Positions 46,946 to 54,604 of a stretch of 64,000 bases of DNA are shown in pieces (within the stretch, counting starts at the first letter, position 1; the number at the start of each line of letters is the position of its first letter). The DNA comes from Sulfurimonas denitrificans DSM 1251 (GTDB lineage: Bacteria > Campylobacterota > Campylobacteria > Campylobacterales > Sulfurimonadaceae). Both the position numbers and the translations under genes were made by a program. The notes under the pieces are model-generated. The model was not told the DNA's origin and made no database searches. It worked only from the letters and a program-made list of their open reading frames with translations. Location: assembly GCF_000012965.1 (NCBI RefSeq), contig NC_007575.1:434001-498000 (forward strand). The letters are read 5' to 3'.

Positions 46946-49051
46946 TTGAGTAGATTAAGTCTTTATCCAGTTACATTAGATGGCACAGATGAACATAAAA
47001 AACGTCAAGAGATACGAGAATATTTTCGCAACACATTTTCATTGTTTGAGAAGGTTTTTGAAGTTTTAATTAATGATGAGGTTTTTTACAATAAGTCAGA
47101 GATTACAAGACATCCAATGATATTTTATTTTGGTCATACAGCAACTTTCTTTATAAATAAACTTATAAATATGAAGATAATAAAACAGAGAATAAATCCA
47201 GAGTTTGAATCGATTTTCGCTGTGGGCGTTGATGAGATGGCGTGGGATGATACGCAGAGTGCAAACTACATGTGGCCAAAGGTTGGTGAGGTAAGAGAGT
47301 ACAGAAATAGGGTAAGAGAGATAGTTGATGAGCTTATATCAACACTCCCAATGCCTTTGCCAATAACTGACAACTCGCCTATGTGGATAATTTTGATGGG
47401 GATAGAGCATGAGCGCATACATGTAGAGACTTCACTTGTCCTTCATCGTCAAATGCCTATAGAGTTTGTAAAAGATGTAAAAGAGTTTAATCTCTGTTCT
47501 CATAGCGCACAAGCTCCGCAAAATAGCATGATTGAACTCAGAGGCAAAAGTGTTCTACTTGGTAAGGAGAAGTCTCATAACCTTTATGGTTGGGATAATG
47601 AGTATGGAAAATATGAAGAGAGCGTAGAGGATTTTAAAGCGTCAAAGTTTCTTGTAAGTAACGGCGAATTTATGGAGTTTGTGCAAGAGGGAGGCTATAC
47701 AAATGACGAGTTTTGGGATGAGGAGGGAAAGAAATTTTTAGAGATAAGTGGTGCAAAATATCCTACTTTTTGGATAAAAGATGAAGACACTTACATGTAC
47801 AGAACTCTGAGTAAAATTATAGAGATGCCATATAATTGGCCTGTTGATGTAAATGCACTTGAGGCAGAAGCATTTTGTCGCTATAAGAGTAAAAAAGATG
47901 GAGTAAAGTACTCTCTGCCAAGTGAAGCGGAGTATAGAGTGATTTATGATTATGCAAAGCTAGAGGATATTCCAGACTTTCACGAGAGCAGGGCAAACTT
48001 GAACTTTTATCACTACTCTAGCTCATGCCCAGTAGATGAGTTTAGCTTCAATGGAATATATGACGTAGTCGGAAATGTTTGGCAGTGGAGCAGAACTCCC
48101 ATTTTCGGCTTTGAGGGTTTTGTGGTACATGAAGCGTATGATGACTTCTCAACCCCAACTTTTGACAATAAACATGCGCTAATTTTAGGTTCATCGTGGG
48201 CTAGTAGCGGAAACCTTATCATGAAATATTCACGTTACGCCTTTCGCAGACATTTCTACCAAAATGCTGGATTTAGATATGTAATCTCAAACTCAAAAAT
48301 AAAAACACAGAGTGATGTTTATGAGAGCGATGAACTTGTTTCGCAATACTGTGAGTTCCAATATGGAGATGACTCTTTTGGTGTAAAAAATTTCGCTCTT
48401 GAGAGTGTCAAAATAGCCACAAAATTTGTTAAAAATAGAACAAAAGCGCTTGATTTGGGATGCGCAACAGGACGAGCAACTTTTGAGTTGGCACGCACTT
48501 TTGATGAGGTAGAGGGAGTTGATTTTTCTGCTAGATTTATAGGAGTAGGGGTAAAACTTAAAAATGATGACTACATCGCTTATAGAGTAAAAACAGAGGG
48601 TGACTTGAGTGTGGATAAAAAAATCTCCATAGAAGAGTTGGGATATGAAAACATAAGAGATAGAGTCTCTTTTTGGCAAGGCGATGCTTGTAATCTAAAG
48701 CCAAATTTCAACTCATATAATTTAATATTAGCTAAAAACATAATAGACAGATTATATAATCCAAAACTTTTCTTAGGTAACGTACATGAGAGGCTGGAGA
48801 GTGGAGGCATTTTAGTCTTAACTTCCCCATACACATGGCAGGAGAGCTCAACAAAAAGAGAGTTTTGGCTGGGTGGATACAAAGATGAAAATGGCACAGA
48901 AGTTAAGACTATGGATACTTTAAAAAGTATTTTAGGTAAAAATTTTGAGCTTCTACATGTAGAAGATTTGGAGTTTGTCATAAAAGAGACAGCAAGAAAA
49001 TTCCAACACAGCATTGCAGAGGTTAGTGTTTGGAGGAAAATAGACCTTTAG
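46946..49051 (+). CDS. ovoA: 5-histidylcysteine sulfoxide synthase / methyltransferase OvoA
   Basis: OvoA (701 residues) is the non-heme iron enzyme that couples cysteine to histidine with O2 in ovothiol synthesis; its C-terminal domain methylates the product. The N-terminal DinB-like domain carries the iron motif GIEHERIHVETS, with His155, His159 and Glu161 (HX3HXE). The FGE-sulfatase domain (about 185-450) has SLPSEAEYRVIYDYA and VVGNVWQWSRTP. A Rossmann SAM domain follows, with ALDLGCATGRATFELA near 502-517. The start TTG 46946 is preceded by AAAGG. It is a three-domain full-length OvoA, not EgtB, which lacks the methyltransferase. Confidence 0.93.
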   Translation: MSRLSLYPVTLDGTDEHKKRQEIREYFRNTFSLFEKVFEVLINDEVFYNKSEITRHPMIFYFGHTATFFINKLINMKIIKQRINPEFESIFAVGVDEMAWDDTQSANYMWPKVGEVREYRNRVREIVDELISTLPMPLPITDNSPMWIILMGIEHERIHVETSLVLHRQMPIEFVKDVKEFNLCSHSAQAPQNSMIELRGKSVLLGKEKSHNLYGWDNEYGKYEESVEDFKASKFLVSNGEFMEFVQEGGYTNDEFWDEEGKKFLEISGAKYPTFWIKDEDTYMYRTLSKIIEMPYNWPVDVNALEAEAFCRYKSKKDGVKYSLPSEAEYRVIYDYAKLEDIPDFHESRANLNFYHYSSSCPVDEFSFNGIYDVVGNVWQWSRTPIFGFEGFVVHEAYDDFSTPTFDNKHALILGSSWASSGNLIMKYSRYAFRRHFYQNAGFRYVISNSKIKTQSDVYESDELVSQYCEFQYGDDSFGVKNFALESVKIATKFVKNRTKALDLGCATGRATFELARTFDEVEGVDFSARFIGVGVKLKNDDYIAYRVKTEGDLSVDKKISIEELGYENIRDRVSFWQGDACNLKPNFNSYNLILAKNIIDRLYNPKLFLGNVHERLESGGILVLTSPYTWQESSTKREFWLGGYKDENGTEVKTMDTLKSILGKNFELLHVEDLEFVIKETARKFQHSIAEVSVWRKIDL

Positions 49052-49091
49052 TCTTGTTTTTATATATTAGTTTTTATCATAATATAGAGTG

Positions 49092-49097
49092 TATAAT
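49092..49097 (+). promoter_or_regulatory. -10 box candidate for the RM gene
   Basis: TATAAT in the 87-base gap after ovoA, 42 bases before the ATG of the restriction-modification gene. Confidence 0.45.
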
Positions 49098-49138
49098 ATT
49101 TTAAAAATTTATAAACACCAATTATTTAAAGAAGAGAG

Positions 49139-51865
49139 ATGATAAGCTTAAGAGAGATACGAGAACGAAGCATAAAGTTTGCCAAAGAGTGGGAGGGTGC
49201 TTCTCATGAAAAACAAGAAGCGCAGAGTTTTTGGATAGATTTTTTTAAAATATTTGATGTAAGTCCACGAAGTATGCAGTTTGAGTATCCCATCAAAAAA
49301 ATAGACGGCTCTTATGGTTACATAGATGTTTTTTGGAGAGGGCAGCTTCTTATAGAGCAAAAAAGCAGAGGCAAGGATTTAGTAAAGGCAAAAGAACAAG
49401 CGTTAGAGTACCTTCCAAATCTAAAACAGAGAGATTTACCGAAGTTTATTTTGGTTTGTGATTTTGTAAGCTTCTATCTTTACGATTTGGACACAAATCA
49501 AGATTATAAATTTCTACTCCATGAGTTACCAAAAAATATAGAGCTGTTTTCATTTATAGCAGGATACACAAAAAAAACCTACAAAGAAGAGGAACCGACC
49601 AACCGCAAAGCCGCCGAACTTATGGGTAAACTTCATGACAAGCTACTTGAAAACGGTTACAGCGGACATCAACTCGAACTCTTTTTAACAAGGCTTCTTT
49701 TTTGTATGTTTGCAGAAGATACGGGCATATTTGCTAAAAACTCTTTTCGTGAATTTATAGAAAATCAAACAGATGAGAGCGGCAGAGATTTAGGCTCGCA
49801 GATAAGCTACCTCTTTGAGCTTTTTGACACTCCAAATGAGGAGCGACAAAAAAATCTTGATGAGAGTTTTACTCAGTTTCCTTACATCAACGGCTCAATT
49901 TTTACAGAACAGCTCAAAACAGCCCACTTTGACCGCTCCATGCGTGAAATGCTTTTGGATGCGTGTGCCTTTGACTGGAGTTTGATAAGTCCTTCCATTT
50001 TCGGTTCAATGTTTCAAGCTTCTATGGACGTTAGTAAAAGAGGCGAACTCGGTGCGCACTTTACAAGTGAGACAAATATATTAAAAGCCATCAAACCGCT
50101 ATTTTTGGATGAACTTAGCGAAGAGTTTGCAAAAATAAAAAACAACCCAAAACAGCTTCAAATTTTTCATGCAAAAATCTCAAATCTCAAATTTTTAGAC
50201 CCAGCATGTGGAAGTGGGAACTTTTTGGTAATCGCTTACAGAGAGTTGAAGCTTGTAGAGTTTGAAGTGCTGAAATCTCTTAAAATACTCACACAACTCG
50301 TCCATATAGACCAATTTTATGGTTTCGAGATAGAAGAGTTGCCAAGTCGAATAACTCAAACTGCGATGCTTCTCATCGACCATCAAATGAACCTGCTTTT
50401 TGCTCAAATGTTTGGAGAGCCACATTTTAATATCCCCATAAAAGATAGTGCAAATATTTTTAATGTCAATGCTTTGAGGGTGGATTGGGAAAAGATTTTG
50501 GATGGTGTGAAAATTGATTTTATTATTGGAAATCCGCCGTTTTTAGGTTCAAAAATGCAATCTAAAGAGCAAAAAGAGGATATGGCAGAGGTTTTTAGCG
50601 GTGTTAAAAATGGAAAAGAACTTGATTTTGTAACGGCTTGGTATATAAAATCTGCAAAATATTTACAAGGTAAAAACACAAAAGTAGCCTTAGTTTCAAC
50701 GAACTCCATTACGCAAGGCGAACAAGTAGGGATTTTGTGGCAAGAGATGTTTAACAAATATAAAATCAAAATCCACTTTGCACACAAAACTTTTAAATGG
50801 AATAATGATGCAAAAGGCGTTGCACAAGTTTATTGTGTAATTATCGGTTTTGCGGGGTTTGACATCAAAGAAAAAAGACTTTTTGAGTATGAGAGCGTAA
50901 AATCTGAACCGCATGAGATAAAAGTTGCAAATATAAATCCCTATCTTGTAAACGGAGATGATTTTTTTATCAGCTCAAGAAGAAAGCATATACAGAGCTT
51001 TATACCTCAAATAGTTTTTGGAAGTATGCCAAATGACGGTGGTAACCTGCTTTTTGACGATAAAGAAAAAGAGGAGTTTTTAGCCCTTGAACCAAAAGCA
51101 GAGCTGTACATGAAGCCTCTTATCTCTGCAAAAGAGTATCTTAACGGCAAAACAAGATGGTGTTTATGGCTAAAAGATTGTCCGCCAAATGAACTAAAAT
51201 CTATGCCCAAAGTGATTGAGAGAGTTGAAAATATCAGAAAACTTAGGAACGAAAGCTCAAGAGAAGCAACTCAAAAATTAGCAAAGTTCCCAGCACTTTT
51301 TGGAGAAGATAGACAGCCTGAGAGTGATTATATTTTTATTCCTCGTGTATCGTCAGAAAACAGAGATTATATTCCAATGGAATTTTTTACAAAAGATTTT
51401 ATTTGTGGAGATACTGGACTTGCCGTTCCAAATGCCACACTTTTTCATTTCGGAATTTTGACTTCAAAAATGCACATGGACTGGGTGCGGTATGTTGCTG
51501 GAAGATTAAAAAGTGATTATAGATATTCAAATGAAATTGTTTATAACAACTTCCCTTTTCCTTTAGAAATAAACGACAAACAAAAAGATCAAATCGAACA
51601 ATTAGCACAAAATATTCTAGACATAAGAGCCGAATTTGTAGGAAGCTCTTTAGCCGATTTGTACAATCCTCTAACTATGCCACCAAAACTCCTAAAAGCT
51701 CACGAAACGCTAGACAGAGCAGTAGATAAACTCTACTCAAAAACACTCTTCAAAACAGATACAGAAAGAGTCGCCCATTTGTTTGAATTAAATAAACAAC
51801 TTACTAGCTTGATTGTGGAAAATGAGAAAAAAGCTAAAAAAGTTAAAAAAATAATAACAAAATGA
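49139..51865 (+). CDS. Single-chain MmeI-like (type IIL) restriction-modification enzyme
   Basis: A 908-residue protein joining nuclease, adenine methyltransferase and target recognition. The nuclease motif is D63-X9-E73-X-K75, the same spacing as the D-X9-EXK of MmeI. A helical linker leads to SAM motif I FLDPACGSGNFLVIAY (about 353-368) and the catalytic IIGNPPFLGS (about 462-471), which is the gamma-class adenine type. The C-terminal part after about 640, with SENRDYIPMEFF and YSNEIVYNNFPFP, is the recognition region. Such enzymes methylate one strand and cut at a fixed distance. The length and motifs are intact, so it looks active. The recognition site cannot be predicted by eye. Confidence 0.88.
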   Translation: MISLREIRERSIKFAKEWEGASHEKQEAQSFWIDFFKIFDVSPRSMQFEYPIKKIDGSYGYIDVFWRGQLLIEQKSRGKDLVKAKEQALEYLPNLKQRDLPKFILVCDFVSFYLYDLDTNQDYKFLLHELPKNIELFSFIAGYTKKTYKEEEPTNRKAAELMGKLHDKLLENGYSGHQLELFLTRLLFCMFAEDTGIFAKNSFREFIENQTDESGRDLGSQISYLFELFDTPNEERQKNLDESFTQFPYINGSIFTEQLKTAHFDRSMREMLLDACAFDWSLISPSIFGSMFQASMDVSKRGELGAHFTSETNILKAIKPLFLDELSEEFAKIKNNPKQLQIFHAKISNLKFLDPACGSGNFLVIAYRELKLVEFEVLKSLKILTQLVHIDQFYGFEIEELPSRITQTAMLLIDHQMNLLFAQMFGEPHFNIPIKDSANIFNVNALRVDWEKILDGVKIDFIIGNPPFLGSKMQSKEQKEDMAEVFSGVKNGKELDFVTAWYIKSAKYLQGKNTKVALVSTNSITQGEQVGILWQEMFNKYKIKIHFAHKTFKWNNDAKGVAQVYCVIIGFAGFDIKEKRLFEYESVKSEPHEIKVANINPYLVNGDDFFISSRRKHIQSFIPQIVFGSMPNDGGNLLFDDKEKEEFLALEPKAELYMKPLISAKEYLNGKTRWCLWLKDCPPNELKSMPKVIERVENIRKLRNESSREATQKLAKFPALFGEDRQPESDYIFIPRVSSENRDYIPMEFFTKDFICGDTGLAVPNATLFHFGILTSKMHMDWVRYVAGRLKSDYRYSNEIVYNNFPFPLEINDKQKDQIEQLAQNILDIRAEFVGSSLADLYNPLTMPPKLLKAHETLDRAVDKLYSKTLFKTDTERVAHLFELNKQLTSLIVENEKKAKKVKKIITK

Positions 51866-51930
51866 CATATTTTTACAAAAAAACACATTATTTTAGTACT
51901 ATGGATAAAAATTTAATATAAAGGTACAAC

Positions 51931-52467
51931 ATGAACTCAAACGATAAATATAATATGCTAGCAAGAGAAATACCTAATTCAAAAAATAAAAACATCTATC
52001 CAAAAACTTTTGGACTTGATAGTCAAGAGTTTAAAGCTATTGTTGATGAAATTGAAAATGATAGTCTATTTGAAAAAGGATAGTGGGGTTTAGGTGGTTT
52101 TTATATCTTCAATAACCTAACTTTTAATGGTAGAGGTTTTTTAGAAAATAATGATAAAAAAGAGTATCACAAAATTGAAAAAACTGAGATAGCCTATCAT
52201 AACAATATAAATGTCGGTGAAAATAATCATGGAAATATTATCACAGGCAACAATAATATCGTAATTTCAGAATTTGATAGAAAGCTTGATGAACTCATAC
52301 AAGCTATAAAAAACTCTAGCATTCAAGATAAAGAGTCAATTGTTTTAGAATTGAAAAATAATAAAAACGGTGAAACATCATTAAAAAAATCTTTAGGTGC
52401 TGTTTTAACAAAAGGTGCAGAAATTAGCTCAATTGTTTCAGCTGTAAGCGCATTGTTAAGTTTATGA
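51931..52467 (+). pseudogene. Winged-helix-like protein interrupted by one in-frame amber codon
   Basis: One reading frame runs 178 codons from ATG 51931 to TGA 52465, broken only by TAG at 52081-52083 (codon 51). The frame is not shifted, so this is a point nonsense change (TAT or TAC to TAG is one step), a sequencing error, or read-through. Before the stop: IYPKTFGLDSQEFKAIVDEI. After it: WGLGGFYIFNNLTFNGRGFLE, which looks like the wing and last strand of a winged helix of YjcQ/DUF2513 style. Then comes an Asn-rich HNNINVGENNHGNIITGNNN segment and an amphipathic C terminus ending SIVSAVSALLSL. Function unknown. An AAAGG ribosome site precedes the ATG. Confidence 0.75.
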
Positions 52468-52512
52468 ATTTAACAATGAATGAAGAAATAACAAAATAAA
52501 AGGAAAACTAAA

Positions 52513-53328
52513 ATGGCAAAAATAATAGTTCAAGAACAAGAAATTACCATTTTAAAAATAAATAATGAAGATTACATTTCGCTGACTGATATGTTGAGAG
52601 CTAAAGATGGAGATTTTTTTATCTCTGATTGGCTCAGAAATAGAAATACAATTGAGTATCTAGGTATTTGGGAGAAGATTTACAATCCAGATTTTAATTA
52701 TGGCGAATTCGCCATAATTAAATCTCAAGCAGGATTAAATAGTTATAAACTTAGTGTAAAAGAGTGGAGTGAAAAAACAAATGCGATAGGTTTAATTGCT
52801 AAAGCAGGGCGATATGGTGGAACTTATGCTCATCAAGATATAGCTTTTGAGTTTGGTATGTGGATTAGTGCAGAGTTCAAAATCTACCTTATCAAAGAGT
52901 TTCAAAGATTAAAAGAACAAGAGTTTACACAGTGTGGATGGGATATTAGAAGAAATCTTACGAAAATGAACTATCGTATACATACGGATGCAATTAAAGA
53001 AAATCTAATCCCTAAAGAACTCACACCATTGCAAATAAACTTCGTCTATGCAAGTGAAGCAGATATTTTAAATGTGGCACTTTTTGGGATGACAGCTAAA
53101 GAGTGGAGAGATAAAAATCAAACTTCTAAAGGTAATATTAGAGATGAAGCAGATGTGAATCAACTTGTATGTTTGGCAAATCTTGAGTCGCTTAATGCAC
53201 ACTTTATTCACGAAGGATTATCACAAAATGAGAGACTTCAAAAGCTAAATCATTTGGCTATTACTCAGATGAAGATACTGAGTAGTGATAATCAAAGAGA
53301 ATTAGAAAGTTTAGGAAAAATAAAATGA
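52513..53328 (+). CDS. KilA-N domain protein
   Basis: A 271-residue protein. Residues about 8-115 are a KilA-N DNA-binding domain (NNEDYISLTDMLRAKDGD, WLRNRNTIEYLGIWE, GGTYAHQDIAFEFGMWISAEF). The C-terminal half has a conserved helical part, ADILNVALFGMTAKEWRDKN and LANLESLNAHFIHEGLSQNERL. KilA-N proteins are common in phages, defence and mobile regions, and as lone chromosomal genes. It follows the interrupted gene by 45 bases and has AAAGGAAAA as ribosome site. Confidence 0.85.
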   Translation: MAKIIVQEQEITILKINNEDYISLTDMLRAKDGDFFISDWLRNRNTIEYLGIWEKIYNPDFNYGEFAIIKSQAGLNSYKLSVKEWSEKTNAIGLIAKAGRYGGTYAHQDIAFEFGMWISAEFKIYLIKEFQRLKEQEFTQCGWDIRRNLTKMNYRIHTDAIKENLIPKELTPLQINFVYASEADILNVALFGMTAKEWRDKNQTSKGNIRDEADVNQLVCLANLESLNAHFIHEGLSQNERLQKLNHLAITQMKILSSDNQRELESLGKIK

Positions 53329-53423
53329 TAAAAGAGCTACCATTATCAACACTAAAAGAAAATCAACTCTCTCTAAAATCTCAACAAACTCAAAATTATA
53401 GTAAAGAGTACAATACAAAATGA
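53325..53423 (+). CDS. 32-codon ORF bridging KilA-N and patB-like genes
   Basis: ATG 53325 overlaps the KilA-N stop (ATGA), and TGA 53421-53423 overlaps the next ATG. The product would be 32 residues, rich in Gln, Ser and Lys (SQQTQNYSKEYNTK end). It may be a real small coupled ORF or a scrap left by an insertion event. No family recognised. Confidence 0.35.
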   Translation: MIKELPLSTLKENQLSLKSQQTQNYSKEYNTK

Positions 53424-54604
53424 AATATACCTTCCAAACTTCTACATGTAGAGAAAACACAAACGCAGAGAAGTACGTCCTAAGAGAGAAGCTATTTGGC
53501 ACAAACGAGGTTATGCCTCTTTGGGTGGCGGATATGGACATTGACACTCCTGATTTTGTTCTTGACGCTGTAAGAAAACGCTTAGAACACCAAATTGTGG
53601 GGTATGAAGAGTTGCCGCAAAGTGCATTTTTGGCTCAAATTGAGTGGATGAAAAAAGAGCATGGAGTTGAGTTTGCGCTTGAGGAGATGCTCTATTCGCA
53701 CTCGGTGGTTGCCAGTATGAATGTCGCCATCGAAGCATTTACCGAAAAGGGTGATAAAGTTATCGTCCAAACACCTGTTTATCCTCCGTTTTTTCATAGT
53801 GTGATAGAGCATGAGAGAGAGCTTTTGAAAAATCCGTTAAAGCTAAGAGATGACGGAACTTACACTTTTGATATAGAGGATTTAAAATCAAAGATTAATG
53901 AGAAAACAAAACTTCTTCTTCTCTGCTCTCCTCACAACCCTGTTGGGAGAGTTTGGAGGAGAGAGGAACTTGAGCAGATTTTAGAGCTATGCGTGAAGCA
54001 TAATATAGTTGTCTTTAGCGATGAGATACACTCTGATTTGGTATATGCGCCAAATGTACATATCCCGTTTGCCTCTTTGAGCGCTGATGCAAGAGATATA
54101 ACAGTTACTGCTATTGGAATTGGAAAGAGTTTTAACATGGCTGGTTTTGCCATTAGTAGTGTGGCGATACAAAATAAAATTTTAAGAGAAAATTTTTTAA
54201 AAGTTTATAATCGCACACACTTTGCCAATGGAAGCACTCTTTCACATGTAGCGTTTGAAGCGGCATACAGAGATGGCAAAGAGTGGCTAGAGGAGCTTAA
54301 AATCCATCTTTATAAAAACTTTTATATGTTAGATGAGTTATGTAAAAAATATCCGCATTACATAAAACTAACTCCGATTGAGGGGACTTATCTTGCTTGG
54401 CTTGATTGTAGAGGTCTTGGGTTTGGCGATAGAGAGTTAAGAGATTTTTTTATTCACAAAGCTGGACTTGGACTTAGTGCTGGGATAAGTTTTGGCAGAG
54501 AGGGAAGCGGTTTTATGAGGTTGAATTTTGCAATCTCGTCTGATAAGATGTTGGAAGTAATTAAGAAATTAGATGAAGCACTTCTGCTAAAATGTCGCCA
54601 ATAG
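53420..54604 (+). CDS. MalY/PatB-family C-S lyase (PLP)
   Basis: A 394-residue fold-type I PLP enzyme. Motifs are MPLWVADMDIDTPDFVLDAV (core WVADMDIDTPDF), LLCSPHNPVGRVW, VFSDEIHSDLVY and GIGKSFNMAGFA with the PLP lysine, then GFMRLNFA near the end. This family cleaves C-S bonds in cystathionine and other cysteine conjugates. Because it sits beyond the inserted block after ovoA, it could be the sulfoxide lyase (OvoB role) of ovothiol synthesis; a methionine-pathway cystathionine beta-lyase is the alternative. Confidence 0.88.
   Translation: MKYTFQTSTCRENTNAEKYVLREKLFGTNEVMPLWVADMDIDTPDFVLDAVRKRLEHQIVGYEELPQSAFLAQIEWMKKEHGVEFALEEMLYSHSVVASMNVAIEAFTEKGDKVIVQTPVYPPFFHSVIEHERELLKNPLKLRDDGTYTFDIEDLKSKINEKTKLLLLCSPHNPVGRVWRREELEQILELCVKHNIVVFSDEIHSDLVYAPNVHIPFASLSADARDITVTAIGIGKSFNMAGFAISSVAIQNKILRENFLKVYNRTHFANGSTLSHVAFEAAYRDGKEWLEELKIHLYKNFYMLDELCKKYPHYIKLTPIEGTYLAWLDCRGLGFGDRELRDFFIHKAGLGLSAGISFGREGSGFMRLNFAISSDKMLEVIKKLDEALLLKCRQ

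Follow-up and report, generated by a model that had tools for sequence, protein, structure and literature searches.

The frame at positions 51931–52467 raises the question of whether a lone in-frame TAG marks a lost gene, an error of the assembly, a codon that is read through, or the boundary between two genes. The window, i.e., the whole 64,000-nucleotide stretch of Sulfurimonas denitrificans DSM 1251 analysed here, corresponds to bases 434001–498000 of the host genome. Translation of the 178-codon frame gives 50 residues, a TAG at 52081–52083 (codon 51), a further 127 residues, and a closing TGA. As a preceding inspection of the letters alone (the sequence-only reading) had claimed, the frame is open except for this one codon and contains no other internal stop, frameshift, or indel. 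The 5' part (51931–52083, forward strand) comprises the first 50 codons, encoding most of a winged-helix-like head, together with the TAG itself, while the 3' part (52084–52467, forward strand) encodes the wing, an Asn/Gly-rich linker, and an AbiTii-type helical tail, all out of reach past the stop. There is no usable in-frame ATG, GTG, or TTG start in codons 52–140, the earliest such codon past the TAG being a TTG at codon 141 (52351), and no second copy of the gene was found in its own genome.

We searched 397 genomes of the phylum, with an additional scan of genome contigs, for homologues of the joined 178-residue product. Four relatives (G289/L015, G186/L017, G203/L018, and L016) align with it end to end and without gaps at 76–78% identity, indicating that the interrupted frame is not a chance one and that the two halves are indeed a single protein, as had been proposed along with the search for intact homologues. 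More distant relatives occur in G200, G264, G265, G219, and G182, and when a profile of the family was run against 399 genomes of the order, no additional full-length homologue came up. All relatives found carry the gene whole except for the one in G182, and the close homologues are all one 178-codon gene. At the column of the stop the homologues hold several different ordinary residues and no conserved stop codon; the column is variable and thus neither conserved nor recoded. No homologue found ends naturally at the first stop, the pattern named beforehand as incompatible with a single broken gene: the only short relative, that in G182 (90 codons), runs past the position of the TAG and looks like a separate remnant.

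Two further observations concern individual relatives. At L027 9894–10166, only the head of a family member is left and no tail could be detected in the vicinity, which represents an independent loss. The title of the L016 record names a MAG of Helicobacter pylori PMSS1, yet the record encodes a protein 77–78% identical to the Sulfurimonas one; judged by this close relationship, its organism label is doubtful.

The age of the lesion was assessed from substitution patterns. Pairwise dN/dS among intact copies is 0.07–0.17 overall, compared to 0.13–0.23 in comparisons that involve the window copy; past the stop, the window copy gives 0.12–0.20, versus 0.07–0.14 among intact copies. Judged by these alignments, the second half of the broken gene appears to keep the signature of purifying selection; dN/dS downstream of the TAG is still low, and a recent loss would leave no trace of itself there. 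Among the lineage-specific changes of the window copy, 12 alter a residue and 2 are synonymous, a ratio that hints at relaxation, but one intact relative shows a comparable 9 to 1 (the others show 6 to 8, 11 to 7, and 8 to 6), so relaxation is not clear. Approximately 5.6% of point changes placed at random beyond the TAG would create another stop, and up to approximately 52 neutral changes in these 381 bases are compatible (95%) with the absence of any further stop. The intact downstream frame, with this many neutral changes allowed, indicates either a recent loss or a wrong base. Both fit the data alike, and the prior favours loss.

We therefore consider the gene to be, very probably, a recent nonsense-mutation pseudogene, in which one nonsense change struck codon 51 of a 178-residue gene. 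The observed basis for this is the frame with its lone stop, the whole homologues, the lack of a suppressor tRNA (see below) or a restart codon, the single copy, and the position in a variable slot; the relative in G182, which is without a tail, represents a second loss in the family and was counted in its favour. Recent loss is thus the best supported of the options previously put forward, given also the variable column and the undecayed second half. On the other side of the balance, the downstream half is without clear relaxation, which would also be expected if the base were miscalled or if read-through gave a functional protein. The nonsense change would leave a 50-residue fragment lacking wing, linker, and tail, and on these grounds the function is most likely lost in the host genome.

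An error of base calling in the reference assembly, which would leave the gene whole, is improbable but deserves the most attention among the alternatives, as the TAG call rests on one assembly, the stop is isolated with no other lesion, and the downstream half is undecayed. However, the genome is a single closed contig of 2,201,561 bases with 100% completeness and 0.36% contamination, the chance that a stop-making error falls in a given gene is presumably far below the rate at which horizontally gained genes are broken, and a broken relative is known elsewhere in the family. Read-through of the amber codon to a useful extent, yielding the full protein, would agree with a downstream frame that is open and was under purifying selection until recently, yet we regard it as very improbable. 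None of the 43 Rfam-detected tRNAs of the genome, all typed by ARAGORN and all with ordinary anticodons, carries a CTA anticodon; PylS gave only sub-threshold model matches in the host genome, with none above the cut-off; and the ordinary, varied residues of the homologues at the column show no conserved recoding. The amber suppressor tRNA that the sequence-only reading had suggested looking for is accordingly not among these 43, and its read-through option is unsupported. Hardly credible at all is a natural 50-residue protein followed by a separate downstream gene: nothing speaks for it except the stop itself, while the close homologues are undivided and codons 52–140 offer no in-frame start. 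The stop is thus best read as ordinary gene loss and not as a novel decoding of the genetic code.

The broken gene lies in a variable slot (49052–53419, no strand assigned) that is flanked by two conserved genes, an FGE-sulfatase/methyltransferase gene (46946–49051) and an aminotransferase gene (53420–54604). We surveyed this slot in 30 Sulfurimonas loci (including L099, L100, L101, L103, L104, L105, L107, and L021), reading downstream of the counterpart of the 46946–49051 gene. It is empty in 17 of the 30, where the aminotransferase gene directly adjoins, and elsewhere it contains restriction, methyltransferase, KilA-N, ORF6N, or RhuM genes. These contents include RhuM in G432, MmeI with ORF6N in G446, ORF6N in G340, and methyltransferase-like cassettes, assigned by eye from the sequence, in G200, G460, and G427; in G186 the slot holds a member of the broken gene's family and KilA-N without MmeI. 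The slot is a chromosomal site at which defence genes are swapped in and out, and the broken gene is part of its cargo, drawn from a small Campylobacterota family.

In the window, the gene is preceded by an intact MmeI-family type IIG/IIL restriction-methylation enzyme of 908 aa (49139–51865, forward strand; PADLOC REase_MTase_IIG), in which Pfam recognises the complete set of five MmeI domains (N-terminal nuclease, helical, methyltransferase, TRD, and C-terminal) and which is probably SdeAI. SdeAI is a cloned MmeI-family enzyme (PMC4752239). The gene is followed by a 271-aa KilA-N domain protein (52513–53328, forward strand; Pfam KilA-N 2.7e-25) that matches the PADLOC candidate defence family PDC-S22 (1e-129). 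The MmeI-like and KilA-N neighbours recognised in the sequence-only reading are thus real by their Pfam domains. Compared to its counterpart in G446 (L101 3654–6380), the MmeI gene is approximately 90% identical in DNA over the first two thirds, but only approximately 59% identical in the target-recognition region (~51000–51450), versus approximately 75% for the flanking genes. From these identities, the MmeI gene looks like the product of a horizontal exchange with a swapped recognition domain.

A link to restriction-modification had also been suspected, and it stands in part. Of nine family-bearing genomes, four (G000, G200, G264, and G219) encode the gene within approximately 2.3 kb of an Eco57I/MmeI-type enzyme domain, and in L016 it occurs downstream of a type IIG enzyme with two genes between. 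With roughly 4.4 such domains per 2.3 Mb genome, the chance of one within 3.5 kb is about 1.3% per genome, so that four of nine would arise by chance about 4 times in a million in a rough hand binomial, a figure that is in truth less extreme as G264 and G219 are of one genus. An MmeI neighbour is not obligatory, however: five of the nine members lie away from any type IIG enzyme, and G186, G203, and G265 have none adjacent.

An intact homologue was modelled from five sequences, with low overall confidence (mean pLDDT 57). In this model, three helices are followed by a hairpin of two strands, and a disordered Asn/Gly stretch leads to a helical tail; the helices (3–16, 24–27, and 31–43) and strands (57–60 and 63–66) of the head are placed with low confidence, while the tail reaches a pLDDT of approximately 69–91. 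The TAG falls just before the predicted hairpin, which fits the sequence-only reading, according to which the stop interrupts the wing of a winged-helix-like unit. At this mean pLDDT a fold search with the model is not meaningful, and a sequence search against solved structures gave no significant match. Pfam, PHROGs, PADLOC, and NCBIfam returned nothing convincing for the joined protein or its close homologues, and no match indicated a phage, plasmid, or viral-contig origin. Given the composition of the Asn/Gly linker, bacterial amyloid signalling (RHIM-like BASS) was considered as a candidate association.

The tail provides a clearer lead. Searched against 2,395 translated frames, a tail profile matches, outside the family, the C-terminal region of a protein in G323 (hmmsearch E 7e-10; hhalign 95.7%, with 31% identity over 62 columns) that carries the Pfam AbiTii domain (1.6e-40). 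AbiTii takes its name from a gene for abortive infection in Lactococcus, and fusions of it to HEPN RNase domains occur elsewhere (PMC3710099). The G323 AbiTii gene comes immediately after a type IIG-like enzyme that is split. At L119 6301–10034, the type IIG-like enzyme that precedes an AbiTii gene is divided between two frames of 589 and 380 aa. In the predicted mode of action of the intact protein, the winged-helix-like head would recognise DNA or some other ligand, the Asn/Gly linker would mediate assembly, and the protein would act via its hydrophobic helical tail, which resembles that of the AbiTii abortive-infection protein, serving as a second line beside restriction enzymes.

The gene is a small one and probably related to phage defence, and an abortive-infection role linked to restriction-modification is a plausible prediction for the intact family. 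We tentatively propose, as one possibility, that the family represents an undescribed abortive-infection accessory linked to RM. Its Asn/Gly linker and helical tail would be shared with AbiTii proteins, with a winged-helix head in place of the AbiTii domain, and the tail would be a module for killing or assembly that can be interchanged and is carried downstream of type IIG enzymes. The intact family could instead be a controller (C-protein-like) regulator of the adjoining RM genes, which is compatible with the pseudogene interpretation and for which one can cite the winged-helix-like head and the fact that members often lie close to type IIG genes. This seems rather unlikely, as members also occur without an adjoining type IIG gene (G186, G203, and G265) and an AbiTii protein has a homologous tail. 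The lead is modest: an unnamed small family whose tail recurs in an AbiTii protein and whose members are often encoded close to type IIG restriction enzymes. Both this family and the Sulfurimonas slot, which exchanges restriction genes and KilA-N, ORF6N, or RhuM genes, could be used in a survey of defence systems.

As a lesion, the broken gene resembles ordinary nonsense-mutation pseudogenes of defence islands in its single stop, whole relatives, and variable locus, with no notable difference. As for the family, DUF2513 (PF10711), for which no papers were found in the literature, matches residues 2–79 of the most divergent member (G219, L026) with an E-value of 5.4e-6, at 27.1 bits just under the curated cut-off of 29.6; this match covers the head of that member, while the remaining members give none and the closely related heads match no family model. 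The AbiTii-domain proteins (PF18864) differ in that the head of the broken gene's family is not an AbiTii domain, and no match to that domain was obtained within the family. Nonetheless, the tail of the G323 protein is homologous to that of the family, both are built from a head that a linker joins to a helical tail, and type IIG enzymes are found next to both.
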